Program-made: the position numbers and the translations under genes
Assembly (NCBI RefSeq): GCF_019747315.1
Contig: NZ_JAIEQY010000166.1
Location: 1-33,286, forward strand
Direction of reading: 5' to 3'
Length of the DNA stretch: 33,286 nt
From: Roseococcus sp.
GTDB lineage: Bacteria; Pseudomonadota; Alphaproteobacteria; Acetobacterales; Acetobacteraceae
Part shown: positions 9,664 to 31,696 of the stretch, piece by piece
Layout of the letters: every line of letters begins with the position of its first letter
Position numbering within the stretch: position 1 is the stretch's first letter
The notes under the pieces: generated by a model
What the model was told of the DNA's origin: nothing
Seen by the model: the letters and a program-made list of their open reading frames with translations, nothing else
The model's database searches: none

Positions 9664-12270
9664 CTACAGCCAGATATTGGCTGCGGTGAGCAGCGCCGCA
9701 TTCTCGAAGGTGACCTGGAAATCGGCCACGCCATTGCCGTCCAGATCGCCCGCCAGCACCCCGCCGGCATAGCGGAGCTGGCCGGCCTGATTGCTGAAGG
9801 AGGCGCCGCCGATCCAGGCGAATGCCTGGTCACCGGCGAGGGCGGCGTTGGTGTCCATCCGCCGCAGGTCGATGCGGTCGCCCTGGGCGGCGCTGAAATC
9901 GGCGATCACGTCGCCATCCGCATCCAGGCTGGAGATGAAGATGAAGCGATCGGCGTGCAGCCCGCCCTCCAGCCGGTCGGCGCCGAGACCGCCGGAGAGG
10001 CGGTCCTTCCCGTCCCCGCCGACCAGCGTGTCCTGCCCGGCGCCGCCGCCCATCGTGTCATCGCCGGCGCCGCCCTCCAGCCGGTTGGCGCCGGCATTGC
10101 CCTGGATGAGATTGGACAACCCGTTGCCCGTGCCGGTGAGATTGCCCGAGCCCAGGAGGAGCAGGCGCTCGAACTCCGCCCCCAGGGTCCAGCTCACCGC
10201 GGCCTGCACCTGGTCATCCCCGCCGCCGGCGAGTTCCAGCACCACGTCACCGGCCTGGTCCGCGACGTAGATGTCATTGCCGGCCCCGCCCTCCATGCTG
10301 TCGGCGCCCGTGCCGCCGACCAGCAGGTCATCGCCGCTGCCGCCGAGGAGGTGGTCCTGGCCGGCATTGCCCGCCAGCGTGTCATTGCCGGCATCGCCAT
10401 CCAGGCGGTTGATGCCGACATTGCCGTCCAGCCGGTTGGCCAGGCCATTGCCCGTGCCGTCCAGGTTGCCGGTGCCGATCAGCAGCATGCGCTCGGTCTC
10501 CGCGGCTAGGGTCCAGCTCACCGAGGCCTTGACCAGGTCATTGCCGCCGCCGCCCAGCTCCACCGTGGTGTCGCCGGCATGGTCCACGACATAGGTGTCG
10601 TCCTCGTCGCCGCCCTCCATGCGGTCGGCGCCCTGGCCGCCATCGAGGGTGTCCAGCCCACTGCCGCCGAGCAGCCAGTCATTGCCGCCCAGGCCCGACA
10701 AGCGGTCATTGCCGCCCTCGCCGGAGATCACATCCTGGCCGTTGGTGCCGGGCAGGCTATTGGCGCCGGATGTACCGAGAATTCCGGGCAGGTCGTCATT
10801 GCGGATGGTCCCGCTCGCGGTCGCGGTGCCGAGGCTGGCGCCGACCGCGTCGGAGAGGGTGACGGTGAAGCCCTCATCCGCCTCATAGGACGTGTCGCCG
10901 GCGGTGGTGAAGGTGATGGTCTGGCTGGTCTCGCCGGCGGCGAAGCTGACCGTGCCGGAGGGGAGGAGGTTGCCGGCGAAGTCGCTCGCCGTGGCGCCAT
11001 CGCCGGCCACCGCCCAGGTGGCGCTGGCCACGCCTGTGGCATCGCCGCCGCGGGTGACGGTGAAGCTGAAGTTGGCACCCGTGCCGGTGCCTTCCTCCAG
11101 CGCCACCGGCGTGGCGGCGATGTTCAACACGGCGTCGTCATTGCCGATGGTGGCCTGGGCGGCCGCCGCACCAGGGGCCAGGCTGGCGCCGACCGCGCCG
11201 GAGAGCGTGACGGTGAAGCCCTCATCCGCTTCAAAGCCGGTGTCCCCCGCGACCTCGATGGTGATGCTCTGGCTGGTTTCGCCGGCGGCGAAGCTGACCG
11301 TGCCGGAGGGGAAGGCATTGCCCACGAAATCCGCCGCATCGGCCGCATTGCCGCTGACGGTCCAGGCGGCCGAGGAAGCGCCGCTGGTGTTGCCGCTGCG
11401 CGTCACGGTGAAGGTGAAGCTGGTGCTGCCGGCCTGCCCTTCGGCCAGGGCCGCGGCGACGGGCGCGATGCTCAGCACCGGGTCCGGGTCGGGCAGGTCC
11501 TCGCTCAGGATGGTCGCCTGGGCGGGGGTGCCGGTGATCAGGCCGGTGGCCCCGTTGCTGGTGAGGGTGACCTTGAAGCCCTCATCGGTTTCCAGCGTCG
11601 TGTCGCCCCGGACGTTGACCGTGATGGTCCTGGAGGTCTCTCCGGCCGCGAAGCTGACGACGCCGGCCGGCAGGGCGGAGCCTTCGAAATCCTCGGCATC
11701 GGCCGGGTTGGTGCCGCTGCCGGTGACGGCCCAGGCCACGCTGGTGGCCAGCGCCGTGTCGCCGGAGCGGGTCACCGTGAAGGTGAAGGGGCTGGCGCCC
11801 AGATCCCCCTCGGAGCGGCTGGCCTGGAGGGGGGTGATGGCAAAGCTGGTCTGGACGAAGGCGCCCGTCGTGAGGTTCAGGGTGCCGTTGGTGAAGCGGG
11901 CGAACTCCATGTCGCGGAGCGTGTCGGAGCCACCAGATCCAATCGACCAACCGAAACTGCCAAAGTTCTGCCCGATCGAGGCGGAGCCCGCATAATCATA
12001 CAGGGCGATATCCGTCCCTGTCCCGCCCTCCAGGATGTCGGCTCCCGCGCCGCCGATCAGCGTGTCGTCGCCGGCACCGCCGACGAGGCTGTCATTGCCC
12101 TCGAAGCCGTCAAGGATATTTGCCCCTGCGCCGCCCGGTGGCCGCCACGAGGCTTGCCCCGGGGGAGGGCGGCCGACCCCAGCCCTTGAATCAGGTGGAC
12201 GCGCCCGGCCGCACGCCCACACTATGCCTCCAAACGTCCGAACAAGCGGGGCCAAAGACGCCCCGCGCAT
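9664..12270 (-). CDS. Secreted Calx-beta/RTX calcium-binding protein, probably 5'-truncated
   Basis: The 868-residue product is an acidic repeat protein, probably exported by a type I system. A short RTX stretch comes first (about 49-85, GFEGNDSLVGGAGDDTLIGG). Three Calx-beta domains follow at about 145-460, recognised by repeated PSGTVSFAAGETSQ and DEGFTVTLS blocks. A long array of GGxGxDxLx nonapeptides covers about 480-770, interrupted by two near-identical VSWTL-ERLLLLGSGNLTGTG blocks. A serralysin-like C-terminal module (DVIADFSAAQGDRIDLRRMD, ending ALLTAANIWL) probably carries the secretion signal. ATG 12270 is a placeholder: the first 48 residues resemble no domain, the recognisable part starts in mid-RTX-repeat, and there is no ribosome binding site. 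No type I exporter genes are nearby. Confidence 0.75.
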   Translation of the reverse strand: MRGASLAPLVRTFGGIVWACGRARPPDSRAGVGRPPPGQASWRPPGGAGANILDGFEGNDSLVGGAGDDTLIGGAGADILEGGTGTDIALYDYAGSASIGQNFGSFGWSIGSGGSDTLRDMEFARFTNGTLNLTTGAFVQTSFAITPLQASRSEGDLGASPFTFTVTRSGDTALATSVAWAVTGSGTNPADAEDFEGSALPAGVVSFAAGETSRTITVNVRGDTTLETDEGFKVTLTSNGATGLITGTPAQATILSEDLPDPDPVLSIAPVAAALAEGQAGSTSFTFTVTRSGNTSGASSAAWTVSGNAADAADFVGNAFPSGTVSFAAGETSQSITIEVAGDTGFEADEGFTVTLSGAVGASLAPGAAAAQATIGNDDAVLNIAATPVALEEGTGTGANFSFTVTRGGDATGVASATWAVAGDGATASDFAGNLLPSGTVSFAAGETSQTITFTTAGDTSYEADEGFTVTLSDAVGASLGTATASGTIRNDDLPGILGTSGANSLPGTNGQDVISGEGGNDRLSGLGGNDWLLGGSGLDTLDGGQGADRMEGGDEDDTYVVDHAGDTTVELGGGGNDLVKASVSWTLAAETERMLLIGTGNLDGTGNGLANRLDGNVGINRLDGDAGNDTLAGNAGQDHLLGGSGDDLLVGGTGADSMEGGAGNDIYVADQAGDVVLELAGGGDDQVQAAVSWTLGAEFERLLLLGSGNLTGTGNGLSNLIQGNAGANRLEGGAGDDTMGGGAGQDTLVGGDGKDRLSGGLGADRLEGGLHADRFIFISSLDADGDVIADFSAAQGDRIDLRRMDTNAALAGDQAFAWIGGASFSNQAGQLRYAGGVLAGDLDGNGVADFQVTFENAALLTAANIWL

Positions 12271-12282
12271 AGGGAAACCGCC

Positions 12283-13248
12283 ATGAAGCGCGTCCTCGCC
12301 GCCCTGTTTGCCGCCCTGCTGGGCCTGCCCGCGCAGGCGCAGGAGTATCCCACCCGCAGCATCAACATGATCGTCGTCTTGGCGCCCGGCGGCGCCACGG
12401 ATGTGCTGGCGCGCATCGTGGCGCAGAGCATGTCCCGCACGCTCGGCCAGTCGGTGGTGGTGGAGAATGTGACGGGGGCCGGCGGCACCATCGGCGGCAC
12501 GCGGGGCGCGAATGCGGCGCCGGATGGCTATACGCTCACCGTGGGCAGCCTGGGCAGCCATGCCGCCTCGGCCTCGATCTACCGCAACCCCGGCTATGAT
12601 GCGCGGGAGTTGCAGCCGATCGGCCTGATCGCGGGTACGCCCATGTTCTTCGTGGTGCGCAACGGCCTGGCCGCCCGCAGCATGCAGGAATTCCTGGCCC
12701 TGGCGCGCGAGAATCCGGGCCGCGTCTCCAACGCGAATGCCGGCGTGGGCAGCACGAACCACCTGGGCTGCGCGCTCTTCTCCCACGTCACGGGCGTGCG
12801 GCTGAACGAGATCCCCTATCGCGGCGAAGGCCCGGCGATGAATGACGTGGTGGCCCAGCAGGTGGACAGCGCCTGCCTGCTCGCACCCGCCGCCGTGCCG
12901 CAGATCGCCTCGGGTACCATGCGGGCGCTGGTGGTGGGCGCCAGCGCCCGCAACCCGAATGCGGCGGGCGTGCCCTCGGCCGTCGAGGCCGGCGTGCCGG
13001 AGTTCATCTTCCAGGGCTGGAACGCCATCTTCGCGCCGCGCGGCACGCCGCCGGCCGTGGTGGCCAGGCTGGACCAGGCGCTGCGCACGGCGCTGGAGGA
13101 CCCCGCCATCATCCGCCGCATCGAGGAGCTGGGTTCGCTCCCCGCGCGCCCGGATCAGCGCGGCCCCGAGGCCTTGCAGGTGCTGGTCCGCGGCGAGGTG
13201 GAGCGCTGGGCGACGGTCATCCGCGCGGCTGGAATCCAGCCCCAGTGA
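12283..13248 (+). CDS. Tripartite tricarboxylate transporter substrate-binding protein (Bug/TctC family), copy 1
   Basis: This is a periplasmic solute receptor of 321 residues. The signal peptide MKRVLAALFAALLGLPAQAQ is followed by EYPTRSINMIVVLAPGGATD, where the APGGATD loop binds the carboxylate in this family. Later blocks are GGTIGGTRGANAAPDGYTLT, the GVGSTNHLG segment near residue 165, and the C-terminal RGTPPAVVARLDQAL. AGGGAA lies just upstream of ATG 12283. The genes for the membrane partners TctA and TctB are not in the window, as is common for the expanded Bug family, so the ligand cannot be named. A second Bug gene follows at 13310. Confidence 0.9.
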   Translation: MKRVLAALFAALLGLPAQAQEYPTRSINMIVVLAPGGATDVLARIVAQSMSRTLGQSVVVENVTGAGGTIGGTRGANAAPDGYTLTVGSLGSHAASASIYRNPGYDARELQPIGLIAGTPMFFVVRNGLAARSMQEFLALARENPGRVSNANAGVGSTNHLGCALFSHVTGVRLNEIPYRGEGPAMNDVVAQQVDSACLLAPAAVPQIASGTMRALVVGASARNPNAAGVPSAVEAGVPEFIFQGWNAIFAPRGTPPAVVARLDQALRTALEDPAIIRRIEELGSLPARPDQRGPEALQVLVRGEVERWATVIRAAGIQPQ

Positions 13249-13258
13249 GTTTTCGGGT

Positions 13259-13276
13259 GCGGCCGGCGCCGGCCGC
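13259..13276. repeat. 18-bp perfect GC palindrome between the two Bug genes
   Basis: Positions 13259-13276 read the same on both strands (GCGGCCGG, CG, CCGGCCGC), starting 11 bases after the copy-1 stop. It has no T tract. It may slow transcription or protect the upstream message, but it is too small to prove either. Confidence 0.4.
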
Positions 13277-13309
13277 CTGCTAGCCTCCCGCAAAATGGGA
13301 GATGAAACG

Positions 13310-14278
13310 ATGATCCAGCGCCGTGGCCTTCTGGCCGCCAGCACTCTGCTTGCGTCACCCGCCCTGGCGCAGGGCGTCTGGCCCAACCGCCCGGTGCGCG
13401 TGATCGTCGCCTTCCCGCCCGGCGGCTCGCTCGATGTGATGACGCGCCTGGCTTGCGAGGTGATGACGCAGCGCCTGGGCCAGAGCTTCGTGGTGGAAAC
13501 CCGCAGCGGCGCCTCCGGCAATATCGGCACCGAGGCGCTGGCCCGCGCGACGCCCGATGGCTACACCATCGGCACGGTCAGCATGCACAACATCGTGATC
13601 AACCCGATGCTGTTCACGCGCCTGCCCTTCGACCCCGCGAAGGATTTCCAGTGGATCAGCGCCATGTGGGACCTGCCCAATGTGGCGGTGGTGCCGGCGC
13701 AGCATGTGCCGGCGCGCAGCATTGCGGAATTCCTGGCCTGGGCGCGGGAACGCCCGCAGGGGATCAGCTACGGCTCCTCCGGCGTGGGGACGACGATCCA
13801 TCTCTCCGGCGCCTATCTGCTCAACCGCGGCGGCATCCAGGGGACGCATGTGGCCTTCCGGGGGGCGGCGCAGACCCTCCCGGCCATGCTCTCGGGCGAT
13901 ATCCAGGTGGCGGTGGACAATTTGGCCAGCTACACGCCCGTCATCGCCGAGGGCCGCATCCGCGCGCTGGCCGTGACCACGCCCGAGCGCTGGCCGACCC
14001 TGCCCAATGTGCCGACCATGGCGGAAGCCGGGCTCGACAATTTCAACGTGAGCCCCTGGCACCTCTGGGCCGCGCCCACGGGCACGCCACGCGCGGTCGT
14101 GGACCGGCTCAGCCAGGAAATCCGCACGGCCTTCGCGGACCCTGCCTTGCAGCAGCGGGCGATTGCGATCGGCACGCGGCTGACGGGCTCGACGCCGGAG
14201 CAGGTGACGGAGCGGCTGGCGCGGGAGACGCCGCGTTGGGCGGAGATGGTGCGGATCTCGGGGGCGACGCCGGAGTAG
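13310..14278 (+). CDS. Tripartite tricarboxylate transporter substrate-binding protein (Bug/TctC family), copy 2
   Basis: This is a second periplasmic receptor, 322 residues, clearly divergent from copy 1 and so not a recent duplication. MIQRRGLLAASTLLASPALA is the signal peptide and has a twin-arginine-like start. VWPNRPVRVIVAFPPGGSLD contains the ligand loop PPGGSLD. GNIGTEALARATPDGYTIGT, ISYGSSGVGTTIHLSGAYLL and PTGTPRAVVDRLSQEIRTAF are family blocks. ATG 13310 follows GGGAG at a good distance; the earlier in-frame ATG at 13295 contains that ribosome binding site. The ligand is unknown and no TctAB genes are adjacent. Confidence 0.9.
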   Translation: MIQRRGLLAASTLLASPALAQGVWPNRPVRVIVAFPPGGSLDVMTRLACEVMTQRLGQSFVVETRSGASGNIGTEALARATPDGYTIGTVSMHNIVINPMLFTRLPFDPAKDFQWISAMWDLPNVAVVPAQHVPARSIAEFLAWARERPQGISYGSSGVGTTIHLSGAYLLNRGGIQGTHVAFRGAAQTLPAMLSGDIQVAVDNLASYTPVIAEGRIRALAVTTPERWPTLPNVPTMAEAGLDNFNVSPWHLWAAPTGTPRAVVDRLSQEIRTAFADPALQQRAIAIGTRLTGSTPEQVTERLARETPRWAEMVRISGATPE

Positions 14279-29654: not shown

Positions 29655-30422
29655 TCAGCGGCGGATCAGGCTGCCCGGCACCATCGCGACCTGCCGGCCG
29701 GTGACCGGGATGGGGTTGGCGCGATAGGCATCCAGCCCGCGCCCGGCGCCGCCGGCGCTGGGCAGCACCTGGGCGCGATCATCCCGATTCGAGAGGGAGA
29801 GGCTGGTGGGCGGCGCCGTGGCCTGCTGGCGGGGCAAGTTCAGCCCTACCAGAGCCCGGTCCTCGGCATGGCGCGCCTGCGCCGCGGGCCAGGCGGCCTG
29901 GATTCGGGCGCGATAGGCCTGGGCCAGGTCCGGCGTGTGGGAGTGGTAGTGCCCGGCCGCGACCATCCAGTCGCCGCGCGCCGCATGCAGCTGCGTCAGG
30001 AATTGCGCGGCGTAGCGGGCATTGCTGACGGGGTCGAAGGCTTCCTCCAGGCTCGCGAAGGCGCGGGGGTGGTGGTGGAGGTTCACCTGCATGCAGCCGA
30101 CATCGATGATCCGCACGCCGCGGCCCTGCAATTCCCGCACGGCGGCAATTGCTGCCGCCCTGTCCGGGAAGAAATGGCCGCGTCCCTCGGCATTGATGGT
30201 CCAGGGCCAGGGGCCGGCGGTGCCCGTCTCGGGGTTGCGGCGGCCCGATTCCACCCGGCCGATGGCCTGGAGCAGCCCGGGCGGGATCTGCGCGTCCAGC
30301 TCGGCCCGGGCAATGGCGGCGCGGCATTGCAGGGTGGGATCCGGGCCCGGCGCGGGCTGGGCGAGGCCCAGGCTTGCGTTGAGCGTGATCCAGGCGAGCA
30401 GAAGGAGAGGGAGGGGGCGCAT
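29655..30422 (-). CDS. Lytic transglycosylase (SLT domain) protein
   Basis: This predicted exported enzyme cleaves peptidoglycan between N-acetylmuramic acid and N-acetylglucosamine. The 255-residue product has a signal peptide (MRPLPLLLLAWITLNASLGL, cut near LAQ). The catalytic glutamate is probably the E in LQAIGRVESGRRNPETGTAG near residue 55. DVGCMQVNLHHHPRAFASLE near 106 and NARYAAQFLTQLHAARGDWM near 133 are the other SLT-fold blocks, and AAGHYHSHTPDLAQAYRARI follows. The C-terminal 70 residues are low-complexity. Small SLT proteins like this often serve secretion or flagellar assembly, but no such genes are adjacent. ATG 30422 was chosen because it opens the signal peptide. Confidence 0.88.
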   Translation of the reverse strand: MRPLPLLLLAWITLNASLGLAQPAPGPDPTLQCRAAIARAELDAQIPPGLLQAIGRVESGRRNPETGTAGPWPWTINAEGRGHFFPDRAAAIAAVRELQGRGVRIIDVGCMQVNLHHHPRAFASLEEAFDPVSNARYAAQFLTQLHAARGDWMVAAGHYHSHTPDLAQAYRARIQAAWPAAQARHAEDRALVGLNLPRQQATAPPTSLSLSNRDDRAQVLPSAGGAGRGLDAYRANPIPVTGRQVAMVPGSLIRR

Positions 30423-30490
30423 GGCGAGCCCTGCGCAAACCGCATGCCAGACCCAACCGGATTTCGCCATGCTGCACCGCAAAAAATCGC

Positions 30491-30519
30491 TTGCATACGA
30501 GCGATCCCTCGCCTATGTT
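30491..30519 (+). promoter_or_regulatory. Sigma-70-like promoter of the sRNA candidate
   Basis: TTGCAT (30491-30496) and TATGTT (30514-30519) are spaced by exactly 17 bases. This is one of the best sigma-70 matches in this GC-rich window, yet no protein gene lies downstream on this strand. It would start transcription at about 30525-30527. Confidence 0.65.
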
Positions 30520-30525
30520 TCTGGA

Positions 30526-30611
30526 GGCGGCAGGAACTTCGGTTCTTGCCTGCTTTCTTGGACGTTTCCTCCCTAAACTTGGCGGCGCAGCAATGCGTCG
30601 CCACTTTTTTT
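30526..30611 (+). ncRNA. Candidate trans-acting small RNA with anti-Shine-Dalgarno segment
   Basis: About 86 nt are bounded by a good promoter and a textbook intrinsic terminator. Hairpin 1 pairs GGCAGGAAC (30529-30537) with GTTCTTGCC (30542-30550), one G-U, closing a C(UUCG)G tetraloop. A 30-nt linker follows with TTTCCTCCCTAAA exposed; CCTCCC is at 30568-30573. The terminator pairs GGCGGCGCA (30581-30589) with TGCGTCGCC (30594-30602) around a GCAA loop, then seven T (30605-30611). CU-rich anti-Shine-Dalgarno segments between two hairpins are known in alphaproteobacterial regulatory RNAs (for example the CcsR and AbcR groups), but I cannot assign it to a named family. It is antisense to the 3' region of the cupin gene, ten bases from its stop. 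The 35-codon frame across it is not protein-like. Confidence 0.68.
30581..30611 (+). terminator. Intrinsic terminator of the sRNA candidate
   Basis: A perfect 9-bp stem (one G-U) with a GNRA-type GCAA loop is followed after AC by seven T. It is the strongest rho-independent terminator in the window. On the opposite strand it lies just after the cupin stop but is not followed by a long T run. Confidence 0.85.
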
Positions 30612-30620
30612 GTCCGAACC

Positions 30621-30998
30621 TTAAGGCGCTTCTACCAGCCTGGTTTCGAACTGGGCGGGCGATGTGATCTCCACCAGCTCCAGATCATCGGAATGGGACA
30701 GCTCCCGGTGGCGGATGCGCGGGGGTTGCAGCACGCTGGTGCCGGCGGTCAGCGTCACCTCGCCGATATCCTCATATTCGAAACGAACCCAGCCCTTCAC
30801 GATCCAGACCATCTGGAAGTCCAATTCATGCAGATGCCATTGCGGCTCGGCATGAACCCCGGGGATGGCACGGATCACATGGGCCGCGAAGCCGCCCTGC
30901 GTCGCCTCGGCGATGCCGAGGTCGCCATATTCAAAGAAAGCGCGCAGGCCGCGGGTGAAATCCCGCCCATCGGCATGGCGGACGACGGTCCCGGTCAT
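30621..30998 (-). CDS. Cupin-domain protein
   Basis: A single cupin barrel of 125 residues if started at the last of six in-frame ATGs (30998, MTGTVVRHADGRDFTRGLRA). Cupin motif 1 is PQWHLHELDFQMVWIVKGWV with metal ligands H, H and a downstream E-like position. Motif 2 is SVLQPPRIRHRELSHSDDLE. The fold binds a metal and may be an isomerase, dioxygenase or sensor; the role is unknown. Five upstream in-frame ATGs (31013 to 31073) each add the peptide MKEGV and lie in the 15-bp repeat, so the N-terminus is uncertain by up to 25 residues. The furthest, 31073, overlaps the GST stop. Co-transcription with GST is near certain. Confidence 0.82.
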   Translation of the reverse strand: MTGTVVRHADGRDFTRGLRAFFEYGDLGIAEATQGGFAAHVIRAIPGVHAEPQWHLHELDFQMVWIVKGWVRFEYEDIGEVTLTAGTSVLQPPRIRHRELSHSDDLELVEITSPAQFETRLVEAP

Positions 30999-31070
30999 GA
31001 CCCCCTCTTTCATGACCCCCTCCTTCATGACCCCTTCCTTCATGACCCCTTCCTTCATGACCCCCTCCTT
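30996..31070 (-). repeat. Five tandem 15-bp repeats, each a stop/Shine-Dalgarno/ATG module
   Basis: Five units at 30996, 31011, 31026, 31041 and 31056 read, on the coding strand, ATGAAGGAGGGGGTC with one to two base changes (AAGGAAGGGG or AAAGAGGGGG). Each unit carries an AGGAGG-type Shine-Dalgarno sequence five bases before the next ATG, and each ATGA also contains a TGA in the frame of the upstream GST gene. The array therefore repeats a whole termination-reinitiation signal. The 15-bp length keeps the cupin frame, so copy changes would add or remove starts and MKEGV peptides without a frameshift. Confidence 0.9.
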
Positions 31071-31696
31071 CATGACATCGGGACCGCGATGTGCCGGGCA
31101 TAGCCGGGCCGCGCCATCAGCCGCCCATGCCAGGCCTGGATTCGCGGCTGCGGCGCGCGGGTGATGGGCAGGGCCAGCCAGCGATGCAGATAGGGGCCGA
31201 GCGCGATATCGGCCAGGCCCAGATGGTCACCGCCGAGATAGGGGGCGATGCCGAGTGCATTCTCCACCATGTCCCACAGCGCCTGCGCCTCGTCCCGCGC
31301 GGCGTTGGTGGCGGGCCAGTCGCGCTTTTCCTCGGGCGTGCGGACATAGGTGAAGAAGATGGTGGTCATCGGCGCGTTGAGGTGGCCCAGCTGCCAATCC
31401 ATCCAGCGCTCGGCGCGCGCCCGGGCGCGGGGCTCCGCCGGGTGCAGCGTGTGGCCGGGGGCGCGGGTGGCCACCAGGTAGCGGCAGATGGTGTTGCTCT
31501 CCCACAGCGAATAGCCATCCGGCTCCTCGATGGTGGGGACGCGGGCATTGGGGTTCATTTCGAGATAGGCGGGCTCCCGCGTGCGGCCGAAGCTGCCGCC
31601 GGCATCCAGCCGCTGATAGGGAATCCCCAGCTCCTCGCAGAGCCAGAGCAGTTTCATGACGTTGGACGAAGTGGCGCGTCCCCAGATCTTCAGCAT
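31070..31696 (-). CDS. Glutathione S-transferase family protein
   Basis: The 208-residue product has the two GST domains. The thioredoxin-like N-terminal domain starts MLKIWGRATSSNVMKLLWLC, with SSNV as the likely glutathione-activating serine region, and EMNPNARVPTIEEPDGYSLW gives the cis-proline VPT motif. ESNTICRYLVA is the usual glutathione-contact ES. The helical C-terminal domain includes RARAERWMDWQLGHLNAPMT and the N-capping block LGLADIALGPYLHRWLAL. It acts in the cytoplasm on electrophiles or as an isomerase; the substrate is unknown. AGGGAG lies seven bases before ATG 31696. Its stop overlaps the first start of the cupin gene and the tandem repeat. Confidence 0.9.
   Translation of the reverse strand: MLKIWGRATSSNVMKLLWLCEELGIPYQRLDAGGSFGRTREPAYLEMNPNARVPTIEEPDGYSLWESNTICRYLVATRAPGHTLHPAEPRARARAERWMDWQLGHLNAPMTTIFFTYVRTPEEKRDWPATNAARDEAQALWDMVENALGIAPYLGGDHLGLADIALGPYLHRWLALPITRAPQPRIQAWHGRLMARPGYARHIAVPMS

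Follow-up and report, generated by a model that had tools for sequence, protein, structure and literature searches.

The alphaR8 RNAs (suhB/mmgR, RF00519) are Hfq-bound, trans-acting RNAs of about 77 nt, and in related bacteria they adjust how carbon is stored and taken up. For SisA of Caulobacter, compensatory mutations showed that the core pairs upstream of the start codon and represses the target, and that study reports no upstream motif shared by sisA-D (PMC12559287). In Sinorhizobium, binding of the regulator PhaR to mmgR was shown by EMSA, its promoter being one of those tested, and the S. meliloti PhaR/AniA operator is described there as WNWD2NYGCRNYGCRNH2WNW (PMC12542648). In the literature consulted, the link between alphaR8 and PhaR is made for S. 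meliloti only (PMC12542648, PMC8401924), and among the entries listed by a search of titles and the openings of abstracts, from which subscription papers are largely missing, none points to such a link in Acetobacteraceae.

The window analysed here (the whole stretch of DNA, 33,286 nt) comes from an Acetobacteraceae genome close to Roseococcus, with Roseococcus and Rubritepida as the nearest named relatives by cupin protein. An Rfam scan of the window gave two matches above threshold, a 6S RNA (RF00013, 7114-7270, 64.6 bits) and RF00519 (suhB/mmgR), the latter at 30545-30618 with a score of 48.6 bits (gathering score, 41). The original prediction, which had proposed such a search, called the RNA at this position unannotated, a description that is only partly fair, as the scan names it as RF00519. 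The RNA delimited in Table 1 is a real small regulatory RNA of the known family alphaR8, and represents no new kind of RNA. Its 10-mer UUUCCUCCCU is letter for letter identical to the single-stranded alphaR8 core, a hairpin precedes and a Rho-independent terminator follows this core, and the covariance-model score exceeds the curated threshold. The predicted length is 87 nt, and a gene for Hfq is present in the same genome. Linkage to an FGase gene, which is typical of alphaR8 without defining it, was not found, the neighbours here being SLT, cupin and GST genes, and no family named AbcR (alphar15) was present among the 8 family matches. The earlier view that the RNA acts in trans by presenting a CU-rich segment to ribosome-binding sites is supported, this being the mode of action described for the RF00519/alphaR8 family (PMC12559287). 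Three copies of RF00519 above threshold were found in this genome; in a survey of 120 genomes of the bacterial family, 98 matched RF00519 at E ≤ 0.001 (96 exceeded the cut-off), and in a class survey of 142 genomes 81 matched, with 65 exceeding the cut-off.

Table 1. Positions within the window of the alphaR8 small RNA, its control elements and the flanking genes
Feature	Position	Strand	Basis or remark
SLT transglycosylase gene	29655..30422	-	PF01464; divergent, conserved neighbour
PhaR/AniA-like operator CCATGCTGCACCGCAAAAAAT	30467..30487		core TGCACCGCA at 30473-30481; just upstream of -35; matrix rank 1
-35 element TTGCAT	30491..30496	+	sequence; TTG invariant in 52-locus alignment
-10 element TATGTT	30514..30519	+	sequence; TA largely conserved in 52-locus alignment
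alphaR8/mmgR-family small RNA	30525..30611	+	about 87 nt; start inferred from -10, end from T run
5′ hairpin, C(UUCG)G cap	30526..30554	+	folding and genus covariation
Exposed anti-Shine-Dalgarno 10-mer UUUCCUCCCU (alphaR8 core)	30565..30574	+	identical to the core given in PMC12559287
Intrinsic terminator (10-pair stem, GCAA loop, T7)	30580..30611	+	terminator scan; stem 30580-30603
Cupin gene	30621..31073	-	PF07883; convergent, neighbour outside the sRNA unit

Direct reading, folding and a terminator scan all confirmed the proposed arrangement of a UUCG hairpin, an exposed CU-rich segment and a strong terminator, with corrections to both stems. The 5′ stem has the predicted 9 bp below its C(UUCG)G cap, to which folding added 3 more past a bulge, and the terminator has the predicted GCAA loop and seven T (30605-30611, separated from the stem by one C), while its stem contains 10 pairs in the terminator scan instead of nine. 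The linker between the hairpins was read directly as TTTCCTCCCTAAA (30565-30577). The fold of the 87-nt RNA has an energy of -38 kcal/mol (z -5.1; 0/200 shuffles were as good), each hairpin is non-random when taken alone (z -4.4 for the 5′ hairpin and -5.4 for the terminator), and both stems were reported by the terminator scan. Together the two hairpins would keep the UUUCCUCCCU segment open; on folding, a weak GGA(CGUU)UCC stem touches the 5′ half of this 10-mer, and the mean unpaired probability of CCUCCCU across 105 alphaR8 loci has a median of 0.68 and a lowest value of 0.39. The ORFs overlapping the sRNA are not supported as coding sequences, since the relatives show indels in the hairpin while the RNA elements stay fixed.

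All 21 genomes surveyed in the genus matched some part of 30380-31110, and 20 of these cover most of the block 30466-30612, which spans the RNA with its promoter and the upstream element; the exception is G130, an incomplete genome matched over just a short piece of the cupin region. Both in the genus and in an alignment of 52 loci the RNA and promoter block is kept while the neighbours change, and the invariance of the core in these two sets is partly circular, as similarity or the core string itself had served to select the loci. The class-wide loci were chosen by covariance model and not by the core string, and here TTTCCTCCC passed the filter in 29 of 30 loci. The covariation set consisted of 18 (16 of them unique over the RNA) of the 21 different sequences from the genus, leaving out L120, L121 and L126, which have a differently built 5′ hairpin. 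Over both helices, 99.1% of the cells in these 18 sequences are standard pairs and 17 cells changed on both sides, and the observed paired percentage, both-side cell count and covariation score were reached by 0/500 shuffles, whereas the number of pairs with both-side changes (4) and that of further pair types (13) were not above the shuffles (136/500 and 218/500, respectively). The 5′ hairpin is paired in 100% of the cells of the 16 distinct sequences, with changes on both sides in one pair and on a single side in four; in the terminator, three stem pairs changed on both sides within the genus. The proposal of a structured RNA had been made dependent on relatives preserving the hairpins by compensatory changes; the helices in the genus do show such changes, which favours it. 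The 5′ segment varies in sequence, yet folds non-randomly in 96 of 105 loci (z < -2, mononucleotide shuffles). RNAalifold did not recover the 5′ hairpin from a 63-sequence alignment because the variable 5′ part is poorly aligned, and single-sequence folding was used instead.

The promoter had been predicted as TTGCAT-17-TATGTT, and both hexamers and the 17 bp spacer are present and conserved to the extent given in Table 1, but the region fails a sigma-70 consensus scan, which found 0 promoters and called neither hexamer. Judged by sequence and homology, the sRNA would be transcribed from this promoter of its own and end at the intrinsic terminator. In 24 of the 52 aligned loci the -35 element is overlapped by a second conserved element, CTTGCRYRCRANYGAYC (30490-30506), which is near-palindromic in several members of the genus (ATCGCTTGCATGCGAGCGAT) and perhaps represents the operator of another regulator.

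Directly before the -35 element, the 52-locus alignment contains a second conserved block, TGCTGCAATGCAAAAA, which resembles the S. meliloti PhaR/AniA operator. Using a matrix built from 10 S. meliloti sites listed in the table of PMC12542648, with the mmgR site excluded, the segment at this position ranks first among the 33,266 positions of the window with a score of 19.6, the next best scoring 11.0; for comparison, the S. meliloti mmgR site reaches 18.1. The sequence TGCACCGCA and its flanks have the palindromic core YGCRNYGCR with AT-rich arms, and by eye all positions of the 21-bp consensus fit, except for the outermost first W, which is a C here. The core is found upstream of 94 of 105 alphaR8 loci, compared to 4/105 in an adjacent interval of equal width, although the query by which some of these loci (those of the genus) were retrieved contained the promoter. 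When counted at [-100,-70] of the RNA core, it is present in 61 of 63 loci linked to a transglycosylase gene and in 33 of the 42 others, with 3/63 and 1/42 in the adjacent control interval. The class-wide test is cleaner in this respect, with the operator core present within [-110,-39] of 21 of 29 loci, from 28 families, and at equal width in 16/29 at [-98,-58] versus 2/29 at [-151,-111]. The carbon-storage regulator PhaR probably uses the site upstream of the sRNA. A second core at the transcription start, within [-69,-39], was detected in 21/63 transglycosylase-linked and 11/42 other loci of the bacterial family, and is absent from the sRNA locus here and in its genus. The two other alphaR8 copies of the same genome (L001, 1501-1579, and L003, 1501-1572) lack an operator core, in keeping with PMC12559287, where the promoters of the copies are said to be unrelated. 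The L001 copy is located between ORFs with translations resembling, by eye, prolyl-tRNA synthetase and an RNase J-type protein. A further locus (L006) has three alphaR8 cores in tandem, approximately 250-270 bases apart, with an operator core upstream of each.

The genome encodes PhaR (TIGR01848, G000:C268), as do 92 of the 120 genomes of the bacterial family. Both alphaR8 and PhaR were found in 91 genomes, neither in 21, alphaR8 only in 7 and PhaR only in 1, which corresponds to a Fisher p of 2e-16 in a test that ignores shared ancestry, with the double absences falling mainly in small genomes, which may represent a small number of clades. Several of the alphaR8-only genomes are incomplete assemblies; of the six represented by loci, five keep the operator core at its usual place (L203, L204, L205/L206, L208 and L210), while in the sixth (L207) its only occurrence is at -41. 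Phasin genes served as a positive control for the operator motif: of the two in the genome, one (L261) carries two operator cores, 58 bases apart, which flank a promoter-like stretch, with one core just before CTTGCA and one just after TAGATA, a layout that was also observed at many alphaR8 promoters of the family. The second phasin gene (L151) has no operator core within 300 bases. In the genus, from which 30 phasin loci were retrieved, core pairs were found 57 to 59 apart in six (L147, L153, L159, L161, L162 and L171) and 61 to 62 apart in three (L158, L166 and L170), while in many of the 30 no core was seen, in part through failure of the ORF picker to locate the gene.

These occurrence data also bear on the possibility that the RNA is an alphaR8 member free of control by PHB status, with an upstream box that serves another factor, for example an activator or an UP-like element. 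Most genomes lacking a PhaR match retain the box, the motif YGCRNYGCR is short, and the CTTGCRYRCRANYGAYC element over the -35 means that other regulators may act at this promoter; the report of sisA-D, which gives no shared upstream motif (PMC12559287), likewise counts against reading the box as a PhaR operator. We nevertheless consider control by another factor to be quite unlikely, as the full 21-bp S. meliloti matrix scores this site far above every other position of the window, pairs of the same core occur at phasin genes of the genus (including one in this genome), where PhaR would be expected to act, and PhaR and alphaR8 co-occur.

A local role in regulating the cupin gene had been suggested as well, either as antisense RNA to the 3′ end of its mRNA or by pairing of CCUCC with the Shine-Dalgarno-like repeat at 30995-31076. 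The convergent arrangement of the two genes and the possible G-U pairing of CCUCC with GGAGGGGG would suit such a role, but there is no overlap between the RNA, with its end at 30611, and the cupin stop at 30621, and tblastn of the flanks found no cupin beside the sRNA at seven genus loci (L115, L117, L118, L119, L120, L121 and L126), all of which keep the sRNA together with the divergent transglycosylase gene. The AGGAGGGGG repeat is not a special partner either, since its duplexes of -13.0 to -14.4 kcal/mol are surpassed by 32 to 58 of 244 gene starts of the same genome, and the five-unit repeat is restricted to this genome among the relatives compared, which have none to two units. The absence of overlap, the seven loci without cupin and the unexceptional duplexes argue against a local cupin function, which we regard as extremely improbable. 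It is hardly more credible that the segment is only a terminator or an mRNA leader element that yields no independent RNA. The weak match to the promoter consensus would agree with this, but the stretch is not a leader of the next gene, which is convergent, conservation extends to the promoter block as well as the RNA, and members of the family are known as independent RNAs (PMC12559287, PMC8401924).

At the start of the cupin gene, a 15-bp unit (ATGAAGGAGGGGGTC on the - strand) is repeated 5.5 times, and because each unit carries its own Shine-Dalgarno-like sequence and an in-frame ATG, a change in their number could shift the start or alter its strength. The transglycosylase gene, on the other side, lies divergently and ≤900 bp upstream at 63 of the 105 alphaR8 loci.

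We are fairly confident that the locus encodes an alphaR8 anti-Shine-Dalgarno RNA with its own promoter, which acts by Hfq-assisted repression and is itself probably repressed by PhaR until PHB granules form; the sRNA is thus probably an anti-Shine-Dalgarno RNA linked to PHB. While PHB stores are low, PhaR would repress the sRNA from the operator directly upstream of the -35 element, as suggested by the sequence, and by homology the formation of PHB granules would draw PhaR away and release the sRNA. With Hfq, the exposed segment would pair with the Shine-Dalgarno regions of several mRNAs and block their translation, as in the homologous Caulobacter SisA. We infer independent transcription, Hfq-assisted pairing, translational repression and the relief of PhaR repression by PHB alike.

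Uptake genes of the TctC type are candidate targets of this RNA, and serve as a lead only, with mixed evidence. A search of the genus for perfect complements gave 52 rows (51 places, one of which was counted twice) in 20 of the 21 genomes, compared to 3 matches for a reversed control pattern. Thirty of the 51 places, with perfect AGGGAGGAAA located 3-9 nt before the ATG, were fetched as loci, 27 of which have an ORF of 100 aa or more, and 15 of the 30 encode TctC/Bug substrate-binding proteins, although these 15 are not independent and include groups of 4 and of 3 close homologues (≥70% identity). The control pattern GAGGAGGTGA gave 0/30 TctC, but is a poor control, with an ORF of 100 aa or more in only 12 of the 30 loci. 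The genome itself contains at least 150 TctC-type genes (225 candidates, 150 scored). An exact complement of at least 7 nt was present in 12 of 47 TctC genes versus 11 of 230 others (p 5e-5), where the 47 genes, 14 from 21 stretches and 33 from the best-scoring TctC match loci, are not a random sample, and gene starts were picked by a home-made Shine-Dalgarno score. Among genes with a strong Shine-Dalgarno sequence only, the proportions were 10/29 and 11/81 (p 0.025), and 3/200 shuffled decoys shifted as far. This enrichment of exact matches is confounded, because TctC genes have stronger Shine-Dalgarno sequences altogether: the difference between pairing to alphaR8 and to 16S rRNA was not significant over all genes (p 0.47), and for the strong Shine-Dalgarno genes the median duplex energy of TctC genes (-12.3) was not better than that of the others (-12.9, p 0.28). 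By analogy with MmgR, phasin start regions were considered as direct targets, and no strong pairing was seen in the phasin loci of the genus, a weak result, as the ORF picker took the wrong strand or frame for several.

The window contains two adjacent TctC/Bug genes (12409-14239). Tandem repeats at 10003-10722 lie within a long ORF on the - strand (9664-12200), the translation of which displays, by eye, GGxGxD-type glycine/aspartate repeats as in calcium-binding RTX proteins.

That PhaR, alphaR8 and TctC form a PHB-sensing circuit conserved in the Acetobacteraceae is a tentative proposal, which we think rather doubtful. If true, PhaR would leave the alphaR8 promoter when PHB stores are full and the RNA would shut down TctC/Bug translation, and stored carbon would set the appetite for new carboxylates via the very large TctC set.

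The RNA itself is a family member, and the new part is the conserved PhaR-type operator beside alphaR8, across the Acetobacteraceae and in 21 of the 29 class-wide loci. Its conservation suggests an old storage-to-translation circuit instead of a rhizobial peculiarity, and yields a directly testable operator as well as a short list of candidate targets. In comparison with the described systems, the locus shares with MmgR of Sinorhizobium meliloti the family model, the core 10-mer, the terminator and a PhaR/AniA operator in the promoter, which is EMSA-proven for MmgR and a sequence match here. The MmgR operator is close to the transcription start (PMC12542648) and MmgR is the sole copy in its genome (PMC12559287), whereas the operator described here is located upstream of the -35 element in a genome with three copies. 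With SisA-D of Caulobacter crescentus it has in common the UUUCCUCCCU core, the hairpin before this core, the terminator and the presence of several copies with unrelated promoters, while sisA adjoins an FGase gene (PMC12559287) and the RNA described here is flanked by transglycosylase and cupin genes. The AbcR1/AbcR2 RNAs (alphar15) are described as repressing uptake genes in an anti-Shine-Dalgarno manner (PMC7143759), which the RNA described here would share, but AbcR has three stem-loops and two CU-rich motifs, compared to the two strong hairpins and single motif of this alphaR8 RNA.
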